Part shown: positions 2,018 through 14,925 of the stretch, piece by piece
Numbering within the stretch: position 1 is the stretch's first letter
Layout of the letters: the number at the start of each line of letters is the position of its first letter
NCBI GenBank assembly: GCA_020630675.1
Contig: JAHDIR010000024.1
Location: 1-42,374 of the forward strand
From: Bdellovibrionales bacterium
Lineage (GTDB): Bacteria; Bdellovibrionota; Bdellovibrionia; Bdellovibrionales; UBA1609
Direction of reading: 5' to 3'
DNA: 42,374 bases
Position numbers and translations under genes: made by a program
Notes under the pieces: model-generated
What the model saw: the letters and a program-made list of their open reading frames with translations, nothing else
What the model was told of the DNA's origin: nothing
Databases searched by the model: none

Positions 2018-3066
2018 TTTTCCCTTTTCCAAAGTTAAATTTTTCTTTTTTTAAAATTCCTGTCACATGGATTCTGATTATTTTTAATTCACTTGTTTTT
2101 TTTGTTTGTTCTTTTGAGTCAAACGAATTTAAAAATGAAGTTCATAAAATTTTAGAAGATAAATTTTTTTACACAACGCAAGCCAGAGTTTATAAAAACT
2201 ATGTTCTTGCTCACCCAGATCAATACGGTTTCTTTACAAAACAAGTTCTTTTGTATGGCTGGGAAAGCTCACTGAAAAGTAGAGTTATATCTATGTTTGC
2301 TCTAGGAGATCAAAAATTCACTCAAAATATTTTAGGTCAAAGTATAGCCGGTGATACTGTGGCCATTTCTTATTGGCGTGATAATTTTAAAAAAATTAGT
2401 CGATTACAAAAATCAAATTCGAGTTACTCTTTAGGGGTTATTGGCCAGCCTTCTTGGGTCAATTTTTTATCGTATCAATTTACTCATGCGAGTTACGCAC
2501 ATATTTTTAGTAATATGTTGTTTTTATTATTTTTTGGTGCCCTCATTGAGCCATTGTTTGGCTCTTTAATGGTGCTTCTCATTTATCTAGGGTCGGGAGT
2601 GGTTGCCGCTCAAGTTTTTTTAATTTTTTCTCAGGATGTAAATGCTCCATTGGTAGGAGCCAGTGGTTCAATTAGTGGCCTAATGGCTTTTTATTGTTTA
2701 GCCGCTTTTAAAAAAAATATGAGGTTTTATTATTTTTTATTCATTCCAAAACCTGAATACTTTGGGCGCGTTCATTTGCCTGTGGGGGTTCTCTTTTTTT
2801 ATTGGCTTATGAGTGATCTGGCCGGATTTCTTAGTCAAGTTAGTGAGCACACAGGTGTTGCCTATGTTGCTCATTTGGGTGGGCAAGTGGCAGGAGCTTG
2901 TGTTGCAGTCATACTTTTACTGGGTTGGAAAGTTTTTAAAAAACAATACCTATCAGTTAATGATGAAGTGAGCTTTCAGCCTCAGCCGTTAGCTGTCTTC
3001 ACTCGGAGCAAAACCTCTTCTCATGGTATTTTCGGTGATACATCTAGGTTCCATAAATTGCCTTAA
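2014..3066 (+). CDS. Rhomboid family intramembrane serine protease
   Basis: Rhomboids cleave transmembrane helices within the membrane. Seen: the GxSG motif at G215-A-S217-G218 with Ser217 as nucleophile; His287 in AHLGG as the second dyad residue; and H163xxxN167 (AHIFSN), matching the His/Asn oxyanion pair of the rhomboid core. At 350 aa it is longer than minimal bacterial rhomboids because about 110 polar residues lie between the first transmembrane helix (about 17-33) and the HxxxN helix, probably a periplasmic or L1-like insertion. The start overlaps the RDD gene by 4 bp, suggesting one operon. The last 78 bp overlap the 3' end of putA on the other strand, so the two tails share DNA. The family call is firm; the substrate is unknown. 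Confidence 0.9.
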   Translation: MIFPFPKLNFSFFKIPVTWILIIFNSLVFFVCSFESNEFKNEVHKILEDKFFYTTQARVYKNYVLAHPDQYGFFTKQVLLYGWESSLKSRVISMFALGDQKFTQNILGQSIAGDTVAISYWRDNFKKISRLQKSNSSYSLGVIGQPSWVNFLSYQFTHASYAHIFSNMLFLLFFGALIEPLFGSLMVLLIYLGSGVVAAQVFLIFSQDVNAPLVGASGSISGLMAFYCLAAFKKNMRFYYFLFIPKPEYFGRVHLPVGVLFFYWLMSDLAGFLSQVSEHTGVAYVAHLGGQVAGACVAVILLLGWKVFKKQYLSVNDEVSFQPQPLAVFTRSKTSSHGIFGDTSRFHKLP

Positions 3067-5973
3067 ATAATCAGGGCCACCAGTTTTACTTCCGAGCCCA
3101 GAAAGTTTATAGCCACCAAAGGGGTGCCGTTCGACCATAGCTCCGGTAATGCTGCGGTTGATATATAAGTTACCCACTTCGAGCTCTTCTTTCACTTTTT
3201 CAATGTGAGCCGGGTTTCTTGAGTAAATTCCGCCAGTCAAAGCAAACTCAGTCGAATTGGCAATTTGAATGGCATCATCTAAATTCTTGGCTTTTATGAC
3301 GGCTAACACAGGGCCAAAAATTTCTTTTTGGGCAAGGTCGCTATCTGCCGTTACATCAGAAAATATAGTGGGAGGAATAAAATATCCATCATTAATTTGG
3401 GGGCCTTGGTAAGCTAATGTGTGCTGGCCTTTATATCTTTCGATAGTCTCCTGAATTCGTTGATAAGCCTCTTTGTCTATGACAGGACCTAAAAAAGACT
3501 CAGGGTTTTTAGGGTTGTCTTGAACTATACTGGTTGTAGCATCAATGAGTCGGTCTAAGAATTTTTGATAAACCCCTTCGAGAACAATGACTCGACTACA
3601 GGCAGAACACTTTTGTCCTTGAAAGCCAAAGGCTGAGTAAACGGCACCACTGACAGCTTGGTCTAAGTCAGCATCATTATCTATGATCAGTCCGTTTTTT
3701 CCACCCATCTCAATAATACATTTTTTGGTGTGCTGTTGACCATTTACAACTTGGCTTGATTTGCTTAATATTTCAAGTCCAACTTCTTTAGAGCCAGTAA
3801 AGCAAATTAGGTTCACATCAGGGTGCTCAACTAAAGCTTTACCAATGGTTTCTCCACGTCCGGGAAGAAATTGAAAAGTATCAAGCGGAAATCCAGCTTG
3901 TTGTAAAAGTTTAATTAGCCAAGCGGCAGTGAGAGAGCTTTGCTCGGCAGGTTTAATGACAACTGTGTTACCTGTTACTAAGCTAGCAGCAACCATTCCT
4001 GTCAAAATCGCTAAGGGAAAGTTCCAAGGAGCAATCACCGCAGAAACTCCTTTCGCACGGTAATGATAGTGACTCGTTTCTCCTAAAGCTTTTCCTACTT
4101 TTTTTGCCCCTGACAATTCCCTCATGTCTTTGGCGTAGTATCGACAAAAATCAATGGCCTCAGTGATGTCTCCATCGGCTTCTCCCCATGGTTTGCCAAC
4201 TTCAAGTGTTTGTAGGCTCATGAGTTTATATCGATTGGCTTGAATAAGATCAGCTAATTTGTCTAAAAGGTTTGCTCTTTCAACGGCTGGGGTTTTTGAC
4301 CAAGATTTTTGAGCCTTTTTAGCAGACTGTACTGCTTGATCGACATGTTCTGCTTGGGCCATATAAACTTGCCCTAAGGTTTGGCTTGGCTCAGAGGGGT
4401 TTAGGCTGTCTAAAAGCTCATGGCTTGTGACATCTTTACCATCAATAAACAAAGGGTATTTGTTGTTAAATTCATTGGGCCAAGCTTCTAGGTGTTGTTG
4501 TACTTTTTGACGTTCACTTTTGTGAGTAAAATCAATGAGAGCTTCGTTATTAAACTTATATTTCTTAGCCACTTGCTCTTCTAGCTCAGGCTGATATTTG
4601 GGCGCCGCTAAGAGTTGATCCATACTTTCATTTTCTACAAACTTTGATCTTAAAAAAGATTCATTAGATGTATTTTCAAGAAGGCGTCGAACAAGGTAGG
4701 CCATGCCAGGAATGAGTTCACCAACTGTCGCATACTCCCTTAGGCGGTAGTTGTGATGAATCAAAGAGTTTTTAATGGTGTCGGCCATTCCAAAGAGCAT
4801 TTGTACTTCGATAGACTTTTGAGGAATATTGTATTGCTTGGCAAGAACTAGGGCGGCGGCAATGGAGCGGACGTTGTGAGAACCAATGGCTAATTTTGTT
4901 AAAGGGTAGGATTTAATGAGTTCATGAGCACATTGCTCAAAGTTAAAGTCCGAGTGAGCTTTTTGAGTGTAAACAGGAACGGGCCAATTCATTTGATTGG
5001 CGTGAATGACTTCGTAGTCCCAGTAAGCTCCCTTCACAAGCCGAACAGTAAATGGGCATTGGCGTTCTCTGGCAAAGTCGACGAGCTCTGTGGTGTCTTT
5101 GAGAGAATCTTTAAGGTAAGCTTGAATAACAATACCAAAGTGAGGGTAGGATTTGAAGTCATCTTCACAAATAAGTTCTTTAAAAACTTCTAAAGTAAGG
5201 TCTTTATGTTCGTAATCTTCCATGTCCAAGTTAACAAAACAATGGTTGTCTTTGGCTAATTTGTAAATAGGGCGTAGGCGATCTTTAATTTTTATTTTAG
5301 AAGCTTCCCAAGCGACGTCTTTAATTTGCGAGTAAATGGAAGTCATCTTAACAGAAATATTAACCTTGGGAATTTCCCCATTTTCATCTTCATCAATAAG
5401 AGGATTGTGTTTCCAGTTTTTGGAGGCAGCAATTAATTCATTGAGAAGTTCAATATATCTTTTTTGATAATCAAGAGCTTCGGTCTCACTTAACGTAGCT
5501 TCCCCCAGTAAATCGACAGTAAAGGCAATGGGTTTTTTTCGAGCTTTGTTTAAAACAGGAATGGCTTCTTTAGGGGTGGCACCAGTGATGAACATTTTTG
5601 CCATCTGTGTGATATTTTTTTTAACTGTTCCAGCAAGAAGGCCTGGAGCTAGGGCACCAATACCAACGCCAACATTAAAGATACTTGGAAGTTCTTTATT
5701 GTCACTGGCAAAGTATTCCTTCAGGTGACTGGCAACTTCGGCGTTGGAGTTGAGACAAGGGAGAACATCAACAAAACGAAACATTTGAGTTTTGAAACTA
5801 TCATTTTTCATGCTCCAATCCATCACCTTTCCGTACCACCAGTCTTTATTAAAAATAGACTTACCATCAGACTTCATATGTTTAAAAATTTCTTCACCTT
5901 GTGATTTAACTAAGGCTTGAAGCTCTGGTTGGCTGTATAAGGGGTTTGTATTTTTAGTTGCGTAATCTGACAT
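2989..5973 (-). CDS. putA: Bifunctional proline dehydrogenase / delta-1-pyrroline-5-carboxylate dehydrogenase PutA
   Basis: PutA oxidises proline to glutamate in two steps, with FAD in an N-terminal PRODH barrel and NAD in a C-terminal aldehyde dehydrogenase domain. Seen: barrel motifs such as NLDMEDYEH, VRLVKGAYWDYE and GSHNVRS, then from about residue 510 a full ALDH domain with APWNFPLA, the IIEMGGKNG segment with the general-base Glu, and the catalytic Cys in GQKCSACSR (about residue 789 in this numbering). At ~994 aa it is the short form without the DNA-binding domain of the 1320-aa E. coli protein, so it is probably not its own repressor. An ATG at 5985 is in frame, but its bases form the TGAGGT ribosome-binding sequence for the ATG at 5973, so 5973 is preferred. 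No partner gene is adjacent. Confidence 0.95.
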   Translation of the reverse strand: MSDYATKNTNPLYSQPELQALVKSQGEEIFKHMKSDGKSIFNKDWWYGKVMDWSMKNDSFKTQMFRFVDVLPCLNSNAEVASHLKEYFASDNKELPSIFNVGVGIGALAPGLLAGTVKKNITQMAKMFITGATPKEAIPVLNKARKKPIAFTVDLLGEATLSETEALDYQKRYIELLNELIAASKNWKHNPLIDEDENGEIPKVNISVKMTSIYSQIKDVAWEASKIKIKDRLRPIYKLAKDNHCFVNLDMEDYEHKDLTLEVFKELICEDDFKSYPHFGIVIQAYLKDSLKDTTELVDFARERQCPFTVRLVKGAYWDYEVIHANQMNWPVPVYTQKAHSDFNFEQCAHELIKSYPLTKLAIGSHNVRSIAAALVLAKQYNIPQKSIEVQMLFGMADTIKNSLIHHNYRLREYATVGELIPGMAYLVRRLLENTSNESFLRSKFVENESMDQLLAAPKYQPELEEQVAKKYKFNNEALIDFTHKSERQKVQQHLEAWPNEFNNKYPLFIDGKDVTSHELLDSLNPSEPSQTLGQVYMAQAEHVDQAVQSAKKAQKSWSKTPAVERANLLDKLADLIQANRYKLMSLQTLEVGKPWGEADGDITEAIDFCRYYAKDMRELSGAKKVGKALGETSHYHYRAKGVSAVIAPWNFPLAILTGMVAASLVTGNTVVIKPAEQSSLTAAWLIKLLQQAGFPLDTFQFLPGRGETIGKALVEHPDVNLICFTGSKEVGLEILSKSSQVVNGQQHTKKCIIEMGGKNGLIIDNDADLDQAVSGAVYSAFGFQGQKCSACSRVIVLEGVYQKFLDRLIDATTSIVQDNPKNPESFLGPVIDKEAYQRIQETIERYKGQHTLAYQGPQINDGYFIPPTIFSDVTADSDLAQKEIFGPVLAVIKAKNLDDAIQIANSTEFALTGGIYSRNPAHIEKVKEELEVGNLYINRSITGAMVERHPFGGYKLSGLGSKTGGPDYLRQFMEPRCITENTMRRGFAPSEDS

Positions 5974-6049
5974 GCTATACCTCATTCAAAAGTGCTAGTG
6001 GGCCTTTAGGGCGCATAGCTTTAACTCTTAAAAAAATCATTGGCCATTT

Positions 6050-6078
6050 TTTACAGTTTTTTATCCCATCAAGTCCAA
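6050..6078 (-). promoter_or_regulatory. Possible putA promoter
   Basis: On the minus strand a TTGGAC -35-like hexamer (6073-6078) is followed after exactly 17 bp by TGTAAA (6050-6055), which matches four of six -10 bases. It lies about 75 bp upstream of the preferred putA start and below the hairpin terminator at 6099-6134. This is pattern matching in AT-rich DNA and is weak. Confidence 0.25.
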
Positions 6079-6098
6079 TGAAAAAAGAGGTGGTTAAC

Positions 6099-6134
6099 AA
6101 AAAAAAGATGGTTCCGGGAGCTTTCGCTCCCATC
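6099..6134 (-). terminator. Orphan intrinsic terminator-like hairpin
   Basis: On the minus strand GATGG (6134-6130) pairs with CCATC (6111-6107) and encloses GAGC-GAAA-GCTC with a six-base bulge. Eight T follow directly. An alternative, stronger GGGAGC-GAAA-GCTCCC pairing uses the same loop but sits nine bases from the T-run. It would end the candidate RNA above and insulate putA. Confidence 0.4.
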
Positions 6135-6284
6135 CCGGCAGACCTGATTATTAATCAGTAGAAGTGTTTGAGCTTTTAAGGTCGCCATGGTTATGGCAGA
6201 AGCTCGATGATACAGACTAATAAGGCAAGATAAGGGCCAGGTTTTTGGAGCCATAATGGCCTGTCAGCTCAAAACTAGCCCTTA
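6099..6284 (-). ncRNA. Candidate structured small RNA, unidentified family
   Basis: Read on the minus strand this segment folds into consecutive stem-loops and ends in a U-run. Stem 1 pairs AAGGGCTAG (6283-6275) with CTGGCCCTT (6240-6232), and inside it TTTTGAGC pairs with GCTC-C-AAAA. Stem 2 pairs GAGCTT (6205-6200) with AAGCTC (6175-6170) and contains GCCAT-AACC-ATGGC. Stem 3 is CTGATT/AATCAG around 6144-6158. The last hairpin carries a GAAA loop and abuts eight U residues at 6106-6099. No gene on the minus strand lies immediately upstream (the flanking gene is on the plus strand), so the terminator has no mRNA to end. It does not match 6S, tmRNA, RNase P, SRP RNA or the riboswitches I can recall. 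Transcription is inferred. Confidence 0.4.
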
Positions 6285-6725
6285 GTTTTAATTTTTTAAT
6301 AGGGTCTATAAGCATCTCTAGGTGTCAGAATGTTTCCAAATGACACCCCTGAAAACGTCTCAAAGAAAGGCTTATGGGAGCACTAAGTAATTGTTTTTAC
6401 TTTATTATTGTTTCTAGTTTTTTTATATGTTGGGTCTGTGGAGGGGGTGACCTAAATTGAGTCATTGCTTCTTTAGAGGTGTTAGCTTTTTTACCACTAT
6501 GATAAAAGCAAATAAAAACAAAGGTTTACAAACACAAAAACACCTACTTTAAAGGCTTTTTTTGGAGCATGAAAAATATCCTTGGCAAAGCCCTAGAATG
6601 TCACTCAAAAGTCAGTGGGGTGACAGCTTTAATATGTAATTATTTCATACATTTAGCTGTTGCTCTCACTTTGTGTCTTGGTCTGAGACTTGCCTTACTT
6701 AAGAGCAGTAAGGAGATTATTTATT

Positions 6726-7364
6726 GTGATCAAACTCATATCAAGAGCACTTATAGTTGTAGTTGTTAGTTTAGTTTTGCAGGCTTGTGGTAAGCTAGCC
6801 CCTGAACTAAGTTGTAATATGGCGAGAAACTCACAAAAGCAGCGTGTTGCTTGGACAGATGCTCGTTTACCAGTAAAGCTTTATATCCATAACTCGGTCC
6901 CTAGAAAGCATCATGAAGACTTAAAAAAGGCCGTTGAGTTTTGGAACAATAAATCTAACCAAGAGCTTTTTGAGATAGTTAGTTTCTTTACGGATGGCAA
7001 TAGCTCTCCTAAAAGAGATGGTTATAATATGATTTCTTGGAAAGACACTTGGGAGTCTGAGAACTCAACAGAGCAAGCACGAACTCAATTAAATTGGTCT
7101 AAAACGTCTTTATACGAAGCAGACATTGTAGTGAACGACCATAACTTTGATTATGCGACTTTTGATGAAGAGTTAAAGGGTAAGATCGTAGATTTTACCA
7201 GCTTAATGATACATGAGTTGGGTCATGTTTTAGGTTTGGCCCATAATGAGGATCAATCCAGTGTTATGAATACTAAATTAGCCTATGGTGAAGATCGCCA
7301 GGAAACTGAGAATATTGTCGATGTGAAATCATTATCTTGTGAATATGACATGAAAGACATTTAA
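6726..7364 (+). CDS. Matrixin-like zinc metalloprotease lipoprotein
   Basis: The protein has the metzincin zinc motif HExxHxxGxxH-type, H163-E164-L-G-H167...H173 (HELGHVLGLAH), followed by a Met-turn SVMN with Met181. This places it with matrixin/M10-like peptidases. The N-terminus is a lipoprotein signal: a short positive region, a Val-rich core and the lipobox LQAC with Cys21, so it is probably an outer-membrane-anchored protease facing the periplasm or outside. The start chosen is GTG 6726, preceded by TAAGGAG ten bases upstream. A longer frame from TTG 6690 would add 12 residues and has no ribosome binding site. At 212 aa it has only a minimal catalytic domain, with no visible propeptide. 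Targets are unknown; prey or self-surface proteins are possibilities (inference). Confidence 0.85.
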   Translation: MIKLISRALIVVVVSLVLQACGKLAPELSCNMARNSQKQRVAWTDARLPVKLYIHNSVPRKHHEDLKKAVEFWNNKSNQELFEIVSFFTDGNSSPKRDGYNMISWKDTWESENSTEQARTQLNWSKTSLYEADIVVNDHNFDYATFDEELKGKIVDFTSLMIHELGHVLGLAHNEDQSSVMNTKLAYGEDRQETENIVDVKSLSCEYDMKDI

Positions 7365-9403: not shown

Positions 9404-11656
9404 GTGCCTTTAACTTCAAAATTATTCTTTCATTTTTTAGTGTTCATTTTTGTGTTCATTTTCAGTTCGCAAGTTTTTGCTTTATTAGACGTTGCAGGAA
9501 AAGGAAATGTTGAAGACCGAAGAGAACTAAAATTACTGTACACCTTTGATGAAGCTAGCAATGCGAATTTAATTCTTAATCAAGTTCATAAAAATGATTT
9601 ATCTCATCCAACTCACCTTGTTATCAGAGGAAATAGATCCAGTGCTGTTCTATCTGAAGGAAGCCTTAATTTTCAAAAAAATGCCATCTTAAACAGAACA
9701 GAATCAAGAATAGTGAATGCTGATATTGGCGCCGAACTTAATGATGACACTTTAGTCACCATAGATCTTAAAAAAGAGATTGCAAGAAACTATCTTCGGC
9801 AAGCCGTTTATTTAGAGTCGCAAGGTGTCGTCGAATTTAACAACCTCTGTAGCAATGATAAGGAAGCTACACTGCAATTTTTTTTTAAACCTAGAAATGA
9901 AAATTATTCCTCAGCCACATCAAACCTTTTTAGACTACAAAACCCAACGTCAGAAATGAGTTCCTTTCATTTGAATCAAGAATTTAATCAACAACGGCTT
10001 AAAATTAAAGTGAACTCTTCAACTTCAAAATTTAGAAGGAATGACTTAGATTTTACTGGTGTTCAAAATGAGGCCATAGTTTCTGTGAGTGAAAATAAAA
10101 AAATAGATAAGTACTTTTTGTTGCACTCGCCCGCAGGTAAAGAGGGTTGGTTCAGCCAAGATGAGAGCTCAAGTGGTGGCAATAGTATAAAAAAAATCAA
10201 TAATTTTTCAGGTTCAAAATTACTTATAGGAACAGCGAACTTTAAGTACGGTGTTGGAGTTTCAGATAAAATCAATCAGTTAAATCTTATTAATAATGAT
10301 GAGGATCTCAGAGAGTTTATTCAATACAATGCTGGGGGCTATGTTGGCTCTATCGAACAGATCGCATTTTATTGCCGTAAAACAACACAGTCTGAGGCTT
10401 TGGGCGGCGAGTATTTAGACACTTCGAGAATTAAGGTCACCCCAAGTTTAACAGGTGAGCCCACCCAGGCAGAGAAAGTAGCGGTTAGATTACTCAGTTT
10501 AATTGCTAAAAAGAAAATACCTATTGATGCTGGCATTGTGAAAGATGCCGCTGTTCATATTGGCCGCGGGGACTACAAAAAAGCTGCGCGTATCGGAGTT
10601 GAACTTCCAGATTTTTATAATAACACAGTCAAAGAAATGGGCTTGAAAATGTCCAACCGTGAAGAGTCGGTGGATGTTCCTCTGAATGACTTTGCTGCCA
10701 CTATGGTGGGGGTGGTTAGAGATCAAATAAACGCCAAAGAGCTTTTAACGGGAAATTTTTATTATCGTGGGCATCGCTTAGTGGGTGTACCTGCCGACTT
10801 GAAAACTCATATTTTGCAATCAAATATCCATTACAATGAGCTTGATAAACAAGGTTATGACTTAAAAAAAGCTTTAGTGCGTGTTGATGGACAAAAAATA
10901 TTAGATCGAAAAATGCTTCCAATAAGTCACCCAGACCCCGCAGGAGTTTTAACCTCACGAGCTTATTTATCAGCACACGCAGTCGCTGGTACAAATAGGC
11001 GTCAAGTGGAGTATGCCTTTAAGGAGTTTATGTGTTTGGAAATGAGTGAGGTTGCCGACACTGAAGTTTCTGACTTGAGGGTTGGGCGTGATATTGATCG
11101 GTTTCCTGCCAACAGCAATAAAAAATACCAAACTAGCTGTAAAGGTTGTCACACAGTTATGGATGGGTTTCGAGGAGCTTTTGCAAAAATAGATTTTCAT
11201 CCTAGCAGAAACTTCGTTATGCATGGTGATCAGCATAAAATTAATCGGGTAAAGATCGGTAAAGACCACTTTGATTATCCAAAAGATAAAAACATAGAAA
11301 GTATATCTTACAAGGTCAACCATAATGAATTTGTTTTCCCTAATGGTTATGTCACTCGTGATGATTCTTTTTATAATTACGCCAACCGTGGATCAAATAA
11401 AGTTTTGTTAGGTTGGAGGTCACCAGCAAGTAAGGGCTACGGAATTGGTCAGTTTGGTCAAATGATATCAGAAAGTAAACGCTTTAGTCAGTGCATGGTT
11501 AAGCGAGTTTTTGAAGCCATTTGCCCTGTAAATATTAATGAAAATATCCTTTCTAAATTAGAAAATTATGTCAACGACTTTGAAAAGTCTGGCTATAACA
11601 TGAAAGCCTTATTTATAGAGGCGGCGGTGAGTCCTCTTTGTTTGGGAGGCAATTAA
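9404..11656 (+). CDS. Secreted LamG-like / DUF1592-DUF1588-type c-heme protein
   Basis: The N-terminus is a signal peptide ending near VFA (residue 26). Residues ~30-330 alternate short beta-like segments with LLYTFDEA near the start and VGSIEQIAFYCR near the end, as in concanavalin A-like/LamG folds. From ~355 the pattern follows planctomycete-type DUF1592/1588/1585 proteins: RDQINAKELLTGNFYY, then AGVLTSRAYLSAHAVAGTNRRQVE, shown here as AGVLTSRAYLS and GTNRRQVE, a CxxCH heme site C579-K-G-C582-H583 followed by MDGF, and a C-terminal helical region (FSQCMVKRVFEAIC). It is the first gene of a tightly packed cassette with the next three. The GTG start at 9404 lacks a strong ribosome binding site and is uncertain. 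Domain names are from memory of pattern, not a search. Confidence 0.7.
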   Translation: MPLTSKLFFHFLVFIFVFIFSSQVFALLDVAGKGNVEDRRELKLLYTFDEASNANLILNQVHKNDLSHPTHLVIRGNRSSAVLSEGSLNFQKNAILNRTESRIVNADIGAELNDDTLVTIDLKKEIARNYLRQAVYLESQGVVEFNNLCSNDKEATLQFFFKPRNENYSSATSNLFRLQNPTSEMSSFHLNQEFNQQRLKIKVNSSTSKFRRNDLDFTGVQNEAIVSVSENKKIDKYFLLHSPAGKEGWFSQDESSSGGNSIKKINNFSGSKLLIGTANFKYGVGVSDKINQLNLINNDEDLREFIQYNAGGYVGSIEQIAFYCRKTTQSEALGGEYLDTSRIKVTPSLTGEPTQAEKVAVRLLSLIAKKKIPIDAGIVKDAAVHIGRGDYKKAARIGVELPDFYNNTVKEMGLKMSNREESVDVPLNDFAATMVGVVRDQINAKELLTGNFYYRGHRLVGVPADLKTHILQSNIHYNELDKQGYDLKKALVRVDGQKILDRKMLPISHPDPAGVLTSRAYLSAHAVAGTNRRQVEYAFKEFMCLEMSEVADTEVSDLRVGRDIDRFPANSNKKYQTSCKGCHTVMDGFRGAFAKIDFHPSRNFVMHGDQHKINRVKIGKDHFDYPKDKNIESISYKVNHNEFVFPNGYVTRDDSFYNYANRGSNKVLLGWRSPASKGYGIGQFGQMISESKRFSQCMVKRVFEAICPVNINENILSKLENYVNDFEKSGYNMKALFIEAAVSPLCLGGN

Positions 11657-11657
11657 G

Positions 11658-12296
11658 TTGAATTTAAAAATAAAAATCCCCACACTCTTGTTTTTAAGCC
11701 TACTTGTCTTCACGATGCAAAACTGCGGAGAGTACCACTCTATGCAAGACTCTGATTACAGTTCCTCATTTCTTAGTGATGAAGACCTTTACGGGGAAGG
11801 ACAGCGAGTTCCTTTTCAGATGCTTTCTAAAAAACAAGTTCTTTCCAGTTTAGTGACTGTGGCTGGTCTTCGAGAGGCCGATGAGGCTTTAAAAACCACC
11901 AGCTTAAAGTTAAGCCCGATATTATCAGAGAAGTCAGAAGTGATTAAATATAATTCTCCTCGAGGAATGACCTATGCCAATATCGCAGGTGACACTTGCA
12001 GACAGCTGATTGTTCAAGAAAAATTAGAAAAAAATAAAAGGCTGATCACCTATGGGTTGCCAATCAATATATCTTTAATCTCACCTCAAGAAATTGAAAA
12101 TACAATTCGCTCGTTTGCCCGATCTTTTTGGAGTCGTAATGAAACTGTTGAAGAACTCCAAATTATCAAACAAAGTTTACTGGAGTTTAAAAATGTTAGG
12201 GAAGTGGCCAGCCTTAAAGAAGAAGAAAGAGCTGAGCGCCAAACTCTTTTTTTATGTACATCAATGCTTTCAGCTTTAGAGGCCATAACCTATTAA
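11658..12296 (+). CDS. Hypothetical lipoprotein of the heme cassette
   Basis: A signal peptide with a hydrophobic core (LLFLSLLVFTM) ends in QNC-G, giving a probable lipid-modified Cys23. Asn at -1 is unusual for E. coli lipoboxes, but the same NCG ending occurs in the fourth gene of this cassette. The mature ~190 residues are mainly helical, with a single later Cys pair (DTCRQL and LFLCTS), and contain no heme motif or known domain. TTG 11658 begins one base after the upstream stop, with GGGAGG about eight bases before it. The tight spacing indicates co-expression with the cytochrome-like genes. A structural or assembly partner is plausible (inference). Confidence 0.7.
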   Translation: MNLKIKIPTLLFLSLLVFTMQNCGEYHSMQDSDYSSSFLSDEDLYGEGQRVPFQMLSKKQVLSSLVTVAGLREADEALKTTSLKLSPILSEKSEVIKYNSPRGMTYANIAGDTCRQLIVQEKLEKNKRLITYGLPINISLISPQEIENTIRSFARSFWSRNETVEELQIIKQSLLEFKNVREVASLKEEERAERQTLFLCTSMLSALEAITY

Positions 12297-12308
12297 GGGG
12301 AAAAAATA

Positions 12309-13694
12309 ATGAAAAAAATATTTAAAAAAAAGATTCCCTTTTGGGCCGAATGTGGTCATAAAAAACCGGTGACTCGTCGTGAGTTATTATCTTTAACAGG
12401 AGGAGCTTTTGTCGCCAGTATGGCCTCACCAACCTTACTCCATGCCCTCACCACAGCCCAATGCCCACCCACGCAGCCCTCACAAGGAATGATCCCTTTT
12501 TTCTCCCTTCATTTGTCAGGTGGTGCAGCGATGTCTTCAAACTTTTTTCCCATGGGCAAAGATGGTTCGCCCATTAAAGATCGATCAAGAATGGGTCTAG
12601 GTTTAGGAGATATTCCTATAGAAAAGGCATTTGGGGGAGCTACTTTTGCTGGAAATGGAATTAGTAAAATATTAACGGGCATGAAATCACAGATGGGGAG
12701 TGCCGAAGAAAAGACGTCTTTTGTAGGATTGTGTGTAAGCTCTTTTGACGATTCGGATAAAAATAGATTTGATCCCACCGGGCTATTGCTTCATACCGGC
12801 TATTACGGAAACTATTTACCGCAAATAAATAGTTTGCCCGGGACAAAAATGAATATTCAGTCAGCTATGATTAAGCCAACAACTCCTTTTTTAGTGAAAA
12901 CCGTTAGCGATATGGAGAATGTTCTCAACTTATCAGGAAGCATGAAGAATTTAAGTAAAAATGAAAAATTTCAAATTGGAAAACTCATTTCTAAACTCAA
13001 CCGTTCACAGTTAAAAAAAATTTCAAGAGCTCCCTCAAGTGCGAGTATTAAAAAAGTATTTGAATGTGCAGGGTTGAAAAATGAGGCCTTGCTAAAGCAA
13101 GGGGGGGCTGATGTAAACCCCTTTGCTAGCCAAAGTAAACATAGAAGTCGTTTTTCAAGTATTTGGAGAAATCAAACTTTATATGGAGCGATGGCCTATA
13201 ATACATTGCTGACACAAAGTGGTCCGGCCCATATTGCTTTGGGGGGCTACGACTACCATAACGGAACAAGAACTAGAGGTGACCAAATGGATTTACAGGC
13301 GGGACAACTCATTGGACGTCTTATTGCATCTGCCGATTATTTACAAAAGCCAATTTTCATCATGGTCAGTTCTGATGGCGCTACGGGTTCTCCAAACTCT
13401 AGAGCATTAGATGCGCCTTGGACCACTGATTATGGGCGGGCCAGTAGTGTTTATATGATTTCTTATCACCCCACCAAAAGGCCAACCACTTCAAAAAACC
13501 AACTAGGAAGTTTGCTAGATTCTCAAGCGGTTGATGAGAGTTTTATTTTAGGTAAAGAGCCTGAAAGAGCTGCTTTAGGGGTGTTTGCTAACTACTGTTC
13601 TTTAATTGGTCGAATGGACTTATTGGATAAGTTGCCAAGAAAGCCTTTTGAAGCCCATGAATTAGAGCAAGTTTTGGCTTTTCATAAAGGGTAA
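12309..13694 (+). CDS. Tat-exported DUF1501-like protein
   Basis: A long n-region precedes a twin-arginine motif, T22-R23-R24-E-L-L, and a hydrophobic segment ending in an AxA-like site, so export by Tat is likely. The mature part resembles DUF1501 proteins of the alkaline-phosphatase/sulfatase superfamily: near residues 310-365 it has GGYDYHNG, an acidic helix with GDQMDLQAGQLIGRL, and IFIMVSSDG, in the order of the family's GGWDTH...D...VVVMSEFG block. The usual EFGRT is replaced by SDGATG, so metal binding and activity are uncertain. Planctomycetes pair DUF1501 genes with cytochrome-like DUF1549/1553 or DUF1592 genes, and this arrangement is similar. ATG 12309 follows AAGGGGA. It lies 12 bp after the lipoprotein and 7 bp before the next gene. 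Confidence 0.75.
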   Translation: MKKIFKKKIPFWAECGHKKPVTRRELLSLTGGAFVASMASPTLLHALTTAQCPPTQPSQGMIPFFSLHLSGGAAMSSNFFPMGKDGSPIKDRSRMGLGLGDIPIEKAFGGATFAGNGISKILTGMKSQMGSAEEKTSFVGLCVSSFDDSDKNRFDPTGLLLHTGYYGNYLPQINSLPGTKMNIQSAMIKPTTPFLVKTVSDMENVLNLSGSMKNLSKNEKFQIGKLISKLNRSQLKKISRAPSSASIKKVFECAGLKNEALLKQGGADVNPFASQSKHRSRFSSIWRNQTLYGAMAYNTLLTQSGPAHIALGGYDYHNGTRTRGDQMDLQAGQLIGRLIASADYLQKPIFIMVSSDGATGSPNSRALDAPWTTDYGRASSVYMISYHPTKRPTTSKNQLGSLLDSQAVDESFILGKEPERAALGVFANYCSLIGRMDLLDKLPRKPFEAHELEQVLAFHKG

Positions 13695-13701
13695 TGATAA
13701 T

Positions 13702-14925
13702 TTGAAACAAGCGAATATATATTTTTCATTTTTATTTGGTGCCCTTGTTCTTGGTTTTTATACCAACTGTGGAGGAAGCTTTAGTGCTCAAGGAAACTTA
13801 AGTAGCACATCTTCTTTAGGCGGGGATTTCTGTGATACTGTACTAAACAAAGCCTTTAATAGTGGAATTTACTCTTTTTTAAGAACTAATTGTAAAGCCT
13901 GTCATGAAAGCGGTCCAGGACAAGGCTTGTTTGCTAACAGTGATCAAAATATAGCCTTTGCCACGTTTAAAAGCTTTGGGTTTCAACGTATCAGTGAAAA
14001 TGCAGTTGATAATTCTCATGCCAGTGGTTTTACCGGCGATCCACTGAAGCCTCAGGTCAATGAATTGAACCAATCATGGGCAAATACACAAAAGGAATAC
14101 AATGAATGTTTAGCCAGTAGAAACTCTAAGGCCAAGAGCCAGTTTGATTTATTAACTTCTGAAGTGTCTTTTATGGTCAATGACGAGTGGCAGACTTTAT
14201 CTTGGGATTTAAATCACAATCGTTTTCCAGGAAATGAAGAACACACCATAGACGCAACTTTTAAAGTCGATGTTAAAAATTATTATGGGGAAGGAGAGCA
14301 AAAACCTGAAGAGCCCATTGGTCTTCTTTTGAGTCAGCCTCGTCTCGCCTTCACTGGTGAGCAAAATAAAATTTATATGGAAGGTGTTTTGCTTCAATCT
14401 AATGGTGTCGCCTTGGAGGATTTTGAGGCCTGGTCTCAACTAATTCTTATTGTTGATAAGCAAAAAGAGTCAATGGGAATAGTTCCTGACTCCGTCATTA
14501 TTAATGAGAAAGACCGAAATTTTATTTATGTATACTCCGATCAGCAGCCAAGTATTGACCGGCTCAATTTATCTTTTATCAATATTATTAATAATACAGG
14601 GGGAGCCAATGACCACCTTGTTCCTGATGAACCTAACACAATTGATGCCACAGAAGAAAAACCAATTATAACCAGAAATATCACCTATGCCGATCTTACT
14701 GGAATGGGAGAGTTTGCTGTTTTTAAAAATAGTTGCTACAGGTGTCATGGCAATGGCGAACAAAGAGGTGGTTTTGCCATTGATAATATCGCTCAGGCAA
14801 AAACTAGACGCGATTTAATTATTAAAAGTATAAATGACCCCATAGAACCCATGCCGTTGGGCGGGAGGTTAAGTTTAAAAGACATTGCCATCATTGAGAA
14901 ATGGGTCAGTGATGGTGCACTTTAA
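13702..14925 (+). CDS. Diheme c-type cytochrome-like lipoprotein
   Basis: The signal peptide ends in FYTNC-G with Cys23 as the likely lipidated residue. Two heme c sites are visible: C64-K-A-C67-H68 and C345-Y-R-C348-H349. The second is followed by Met384 in EPMPLGG and the helix IAIIEKWVSDGA, which is the usual tail of a small cytochrome c domain with Met as axial ligand. Between the hemes, residues ~150-320 look like a beta-rich domain of copper-dependent monooxygenase or immunoglobulin style, unassigned. TTG 13702 starts seven bases after the DUF1501-like gene. As an outer-membrane or periplasmic electron carrier it could accept electrons from its cassette partners (inference). Confidence 0.8.
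   Translation: MKQANIYFSFLFGALVLGFYTNCGGSFSAQGNLSSTSSLGGDFCDTVLNKAFNSGIYSFLRTNCKACHESGPGQGLFANSDQNIAFATFKSFGFQRISENAVDNSHASGFTGDPLKPQVNELNQSWANTQKEYNECLASRNSKAKSQFDLLTSEVSFMVNDEWQTLSWDLNHNRFPGNEEHTIDATFKVDVKNYYGEGEQKPEEPIGLLLSQPRLAFTGEQNKIYMEGVLLQSNGVALEDFEAWSQLILIVDKQKESMGIVPDSVIINEKDRNFIYVYSDQQPSIDRLNLSFINIINNTGGANDHLVPDEPNTIDATEEKPIITRNITYADLTGMGEFAVFKNSCYRCHGNGEQRGGFAIDNIAQAKTRRDLIIKSINDPIEPMPLGGRLSLKDIAIIEKWVSDGAL

Follow-up and report, generated by a model that had tools for sequence, protein, structure and literature searches.

A predicted small RNA with a sigma-54-type promoter appears to be conserved across most of the order Bdellovibrionales

The Qrr RNAs of the Vibrionaceae are intergenic RNAs of about 100 nt that have activator sites upstream and contain several stem-loops and a terminator. 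They require Hfq, and Rfam contains a model for them. Their dependence on sigma-54 is described in the accessible part of PMC10162802. GlmY/GlmZ of the Enterobacteriaceae are also sigma-54-dependent and have activating sequences upstream that serve a two-component activator (PMC6075780, excerpt). From the order Bdellovibrionales, eight attack-phase RNAs (merRNA and APsRNA1-7) were reported in the transcriptome of Bdellovibrio bacteriovorus HD100, in which growth-phase RNAs were not mappable (PMC3627812, sections available). An RNA of 261 bp at 96,455-96,716 was reported from the bd0103-bd0108 hit locus of the same strain (PMC3818213, sections available).

We analysed a contig of 42,374 nt from a Bdellovibrionales bacterium (JAHDIR010000024.1), which is referred to, at its full length, as the window. 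Sequence comparison indicates that a conserved gene for a small RNA is located on its minus strand. The predicted mode of activation is like that of Qrr and GlmY, and by model the RNA is a member of no Rfam family. It probably extends from 6213 to 6099 (about 115 nt). The features of the locus are listed by position; R1 and R2 are covariance models described below.

2989 to 5985, minus strand: putA, for bifunctional proline utilisation, a variable neighbour located 113 nt past the end of the RNA
6099 to 6213, minus strand: predicted small RNA of about 115 nt (R1 match at 6100-6207, R2 match with E 2.5e-10, fold z -3.13)
6099 to 6136, minus strand: terminator stem GGGAGC-GAAA-GCUCCC followed by U8 (from sequence, fold and covarying stem pairs)
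6137 to 6169, minus strand: linker, mostly single-stranded and rich in C among relatives; the window has a lineage-specific hairpin in it (6158-6144)
6170 to 6205, minus strand: domain P1/P2 (P1, 6205-6200 with 6175-6170; P2, 6198-6193 with 6188-6183)
6225 to 6239, minus strand: predicted sigma-54 -24/-12 promoter TGGCCCTTATCTTGC, a perfect site by sequence
6247 to 6253, minus strand: activator-like half site (proximal) with the sequence TGGCTCC (consensus TGACACC), a short distance upstream of the -24 box
6321 to 6347, no strand assigned: distal enhancer-like palindrome GGTGTCA-N13-TGACACC, candidate site of a sigma-54 activator
6679 to 6693, plus strand: sigma-54-like site facing the peptidase gene, perfect score
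6726 to 7364, plus strand: M10/matrixin-like peptidase lipoprotein gene (PF00413, E 2.3e-8), the constant divergent neighbour

The RNA differs from Qrr in having no Rfam match, in its own two-stem 5' domain and in the absence of Hfq from the tested relatives; in addition, no luxO-like gene is linked to it among the tested neighbours. It is set apart from GlmY/GlmZ by the lack of a model match and of glmS or qseEF among the tested neighbours. With Rfam 15 (4227 models), there was no match at the gathering threshold in the window or in the loci of 20 relatives, and a permissive scan of 5900-6600 gave a best E of 1.9, with all matches far below gathering. This agrees with a preliminary description of the locus, which could not name a family. 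No description of the RNA was found in the literature searched, within which subscription papers are thinly covered. Hfq (PF17209), on which base-pairing RNAs such as Qrr and GlmZ depend, was detected in none of 38 genomes of the order; the control was positive in 5 of 14.

Like merRNA and APsRNA1-7, the RNA is predicted to be a non-coding RNA of this order, but it has other coordinates, and FliA promoters precede three of those listed (PMC3627812, sections available) whereas the promoter found here is of the sigma-54 type. Also, merRNA carries a c-di-GMP-I riboswitch, which the window RNA does not. In a genome with HD100 coordinates (G063), this riboswitch is found at 1,073,868-1,073,951 (minus strand), inside the published merRNA coordinates (1,073,741-1,074,185, minus strand; PMC3627812, same sections), which supports the same coordinate system as HD100. 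The R2 match in this genome, at 1,199,754-1,199,862 (minus strand), is not among the eight HD100 RNAs of Table 2 in PMC3627812, a list restricted to attack-phase-specific RNAs. The hit-locus RNA is likewise an intergenic Bdellovibrio RNA but lies at another place and has another size (PMC3818213, sections available).

The preliminary description had proposed an RNA of four consecutive stem-loops, from 6284 to a U8 run at 6099. Four hairpins and then U8 are indeed predicted for this region (-57.3 kcal/mol, z -3.07, equalled by 2 of 200 shuffles), but only the second (P1/P2) and the fourth (terminator stem) are conserved. The 3' arm of hairpin 1 (6284-6231) includes the -24 box of the promoter, and the hairpin is absent from G003, the nearest relative (same genus, and the closest one that keeps the locus). 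For these two reasons, hairpin 1 is regarded as promoter DNA, not RNA. Hairpin 3 (6158-6144) is present in the window and, in a shortened form, in G003, being private to the window's genus. Between the window and G003, two blocks are conserved: the domain GAGC..GCCAUAACC(A/G)UGGCGACCU..GCUC and the stem GGGAGC..GCUCCC, which is followed by U. Given the usual sigma-54 spacing, the promoter at 6239-6225 would place the transcription start near 6213, 12 nt past the -12 box, so that the originally proposed 5' boundary is about 71 nt too long. The predicted 3' end is within U8. Folded alone, 6213-6099 gives -32.4 kcal/mol (z -3.13, equalled by 2 of 200 shuffles). The claim that no protein gene lies upstream on the same strand within the spacer holds overall, with the exception of a 61-aa ORF that begins at 6254. 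A small-ORF reading of the locus was rejected: this ORF begins ahead of the position at which the RNA is predicted to start, and inspection of the relatives' RNAs revealed no shared ORF.

PutA was found in 42 of the 47 genomes of the family. Around PutA, loci of the same architecture, though more diverged, occur in further genomes behind the motif TGG-N8-TTG(C/A), which is that of the sigma-54 -24/-12 promoter. By DNA similarity, a search of 39 relatives returned three genomes: the own genome, G003 and G024. The last of these matches (E 4.8e-5) lies at an unrelated gene and is due to chance similarity of A/T-rich sequence. Model R1 was built from an alignment (A2) of four relatives (L009, L012, L010 and L022), with the window and the promoter excluded. 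It matched 32 of the 47 family genomes at E<=1, and its sole match in the window's genome is 6100-6207 on the minus strand (E 2.8e-4). Two doubtful matches that lack a promoter (L063, L066) were dropped before alignments A3 and A4 were made; G003, which R1 had missed, was added by hand. Model R2, retrained on 28 aligned matches, finds G003.

At E<=0.1, R2 matches 98 of the 140 genomes of the order, nearly always in single copy; the exceptions, with two copies, are G125 (L140, L141) and G019. Among the 42 genomes without a match at this threshold are G001 and G002, two of the other three members of the window's genus, as well as several small genomes from the family. The class, with three genomes more, gave matches in 95 of 143 genomes at E<=0.01, and the phylum in 91 of 368 at E<=0.001, of which 90 are within the order. 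The one match at this threshold among the 228 phylum genomes outside the order (368 minus 140), in G273, was rejected as false: it lacks a promoter and bears no resemblance to the RNA. The RNA appears to be conserved across most of the order Bdellovibrionales.

Compensatory base changes in relatives, which the preliminary description had asked for, are abundant. In alignment A4 (69 sequences, 68 distinct), all 20 modelled pairs have two-sided changes and 91.4% of the cells pair. The covariation score of 0.542 compares with 0.171 after shuffling and with 0.063-0.115 for slid versions. Fitting A4 to the model biases the alignment towards the structure; P2, however, sits in a block without gaps and varies on its own. 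Two-sided changes were observed in five of five pairs of P1 and in five of five pairs of P2, and the terminator-stem pairs covary as well. The fourth pair of P2 occurs as A-U (37), C-G (14), G-C (14) and U-A (2). Together with the independently conserved promoter (see below), these changes argue for the dedicated small RNA that had been proposed. The loop of the P1/P2 domain is AACC in the window, and every one of the 69 sequences has C as the final base of the P2 loop. The 3'-side internal loop has a conserved CC, which is frequent in A4, as are C-rich motifs in the linker. The linker sequence itself drifts, notably in the window's genus. By inspection, the genus Bdellovibrio has an extra 5' hairpin (GUCUC/GAGAC) ahead of P1.

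A -24/-12 promoter of the sigma-54 kind (GG-N10-GC) is found directly upstream of the predicted RNA. Because the promoter had been left out of the covariance model, its occurrence in relatives is an independent test. Of 40 loci outside the family, 33 have a perfect site no more than 75 nt upstream of the model match, compared to 6 of 3749 random control windows. The 40 loci come from 39 of the 67 genomes outside the family that have a match, hand-picked to span all families. One further locus, in G081, has its site 114 nt upstream because of an insertion. Of 30 R1 matches within the family, 20 have a strict site up to 75 nt upstream, compared to 109 of 5382 random positions. Over all 69 loci, the promoter is found at a narrow range of distances from the RNA and scores 11/11 in 50 loci, 10/11 in 12 and worse in 7. 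In the HD100 locus, the promoter sequence is TGGCCCGCTGATTGC. A sigma-70 promoter was also considered: no site was found at the RNA start, and the two minus-strand sites (6744-6716 and 6604-6575) correspond to the number expected by chance. RpoN is encoded in the window's own genome (PF04552, E 1.2e-64) and in 126 of the 140 genomes of the order; being nearly universal, it makes the co-occurrence of RNA and RpoN uninformative.

Candidate activator sites lie further upstream. Most of 29 loci have a TGACACC-like half site at a fixed position (register -24/-25), a motif that was picked by eye from the same sequences. The palindrome of the family is GGTGTC-N5-GACACC at about -95 to -130. With at least 9 of 12 matches, it occurs between -30 and -150 in 13 of 29 family loci, compared to 31 of 2280 control windows; the motif was defined on the same sequences, so that this enrichment describes rather than tests. 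A search of the window's own genome gave 30 palindrome sites per strand against 39 for a reversed-pattern control; with a count below the control, no regulon can be read from this genome. In the genus Bdellovibrio (L118-L130), the region upstream of the -24 box has a strongly conserved AACACCCCNTCGCCGCAAAGTGTGGTGCAAAAGG block, which is unlike the palindrome of the window's family.

At the 3' end, the window has the signature of an intrinsic terminator, a GC stem and then a U-run (U8). A U-tract is found in only 28 of 69 relatives; in the other 41 there is no clear one, so that termination is uncertain there. A CGCG-type sequence directly follows the stem in 25 of 69 relatives (L118, L119, L120, L122, L131 and others), 24 of which have no U-run. 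In Bdellovibrio, the sequence directly after the 3' stem is CCAGCCGCGCGCGCG.

Of the 69 loci, 55 have the M10 peptidase gene upstream in the opposite orientation, 6 have it downstream in the same orientation (with the RNA inverted), and one has it upstream in the same orientation. A same-strand putA follows the RNA in 22 loci, and in 5 putA is upstream on the opposite strand; isocitrate dehydrogenase is downstream in 16, and some of the 69 loci are cut by contig ends. The RNA of HD100 lies between the isocitrate dehydrogenase and peptidase genes. The link to putA that the preliminary description implied has to be revised, putA being one among several downstream neighbours across relatives. For the peptidase gene, the start codon GTG at 6726, which is preceded by a good Shine-Dalgarno sequence, is preferred over the listed TTG at 6690. 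Among 68 loci, 9, that of the window included, have a perfect sigma-54-like site on the opposite strand, directed towards the peptidase gene, where 1.5 would be expected; the same score is reached by nine sites in the whole window, so that a shared divergent sigma-54 control region is only a hint. The M10 peptidase lipoprotein gene may belong to the same regulon as the RNA. No signal emerged for pairing between the linker and the mRNAs of the four neighbouring genes analysed, with median z of -0.09 for the M10 peptidase (57 loci), -0.03 for putA (26), 0.65 for isocitrate dehydrogenase (16) and -0.38 for an 89-aa ORF (20). Elsewhere in the window, at 9404-14925, a gene run with CxxCH-type motifs was noticed by eye; it codes for large secreted proteins and lipoproteins and is possibly a cytochrome-related cluster.

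We consider it highly probable that the locus codes for a stand-alone regulatory RNA of about 115 nt, which would be transcribed by sigma-54 RNA polymerase with an enhancer-binding protein, end at an intrinsic terminator and act in trans without Hfq. We infer the following course of events. A bacterial enhancer-binding protein would bind the palindrome at 6321-6347, and perhaps also the proximal half site, and become activated. Sigma-54 RNA polymerase would then transcribe the RNA from the promoter at 6239-6225 until the terminator is reached. The RNA would fold into the two-stem 5' domain with its conserved loop, the unpaired C-rich linker and the terminator stem. It would act in trans without Hfq, with the linker or the P1/P2 internal loop contacting mRNAs or an RNA-binding protein.

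Action by trans pairing is favoured over protein binding, and a leader role is the least likely of the three. If the RNA were a protein-sequestering one, its P1/P2 domain, with the loop C that never varies and the recurring C-rich motifs, would bind and titrate an RNA-binding protein. This is a possible but rather improbable reading. The highest conservation is indeed in P1/P2, in the loop C (69 of 69) and in the internal-loop CC and not in a long seed, the linker drifts most notably in the window's genus, and Hfq was found in 0 of 38 genomes. However, a candidate binding protein was not identified, each RNA has only one copy of the domain, and the P2 loop presents no GGA motifs, which are typical of CsrA sponges. 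That the element is a cis-acting leader (riboswitch or attenuator) of a downstream metabolic gene, putA here and isocitrate dehydrogenase in Bdellovibrio, with a regulated terminator stem and read-through, is unlikely. The arrangement would allow it in some loci, where a same-strand gene follows within about 180 nt: putA at 31-172 nt (e.g., L038, L039, L049, L058) and, in the genus Bdellovibrio, isocitrate dehydrogenase at 35-75 nt; the stems without a U-tract in several relatives would permit read-through. But the downstream gene varies between families (of 69 loci, 22 have putA and 16 isocitrate dehydrogenase, with neither or an inverted arrangement in the rest), and the window has a strong U8 terminator ahead of putA. 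Inspection revealed no conserved alternative antiterminator pairing. Elsewhere, putA is 946-1329 nt away, behind an opposite-strand gene in two inspected loci, or divergent (5 loci). With putA distant or behind an opposite-strand gene and the RNA inverted in 6 of 69 loci, the element is not simply a leader.

There is very little probability that no functional RNA exists and that the locus consists of conserved DNA past a promoter, with hairpins that arose by chance and a terminator without a known use. Such a view can point to hairpin 1, which proved to be outside the RNA. It is at odds with covariation in all 20 pairs (0.542 against 0.06-0.12 in slid controls) and with a promoter that is conserved at a narrow range of distances. 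For the trans-acting regulatory RNA that we prefer, a more far-reaching version is put forward tentatively, as possible rather than probable: an order-wide, Hfq-independent core riboregulator under a sigma-54 activator that responds to a nutrient or a signal from prey and possibly drives the divergent M10 peptidase gene as well, through upstream sites common to both. Its P1/P2 domain and C-rich linker would bind an RNA chaperone, and its 3' end in Bdellovibrio and several relatives would be set by a stem with CGCGCG after it in place of a U-run.

Regulatory RNAs of predatory Bdellovibrionales are almost unknown so far. The RNA predicted here is mostly single-copy, has a conserved structure and promoter, and is found in about two-thirds of the sampled genomes of the order, a lineage without detectable Hfq. 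With its exact address in HD100 (1,199,754-1,199,862, minus strand), its expression, RpoN dependence and knockout phenotype would be directly testable.
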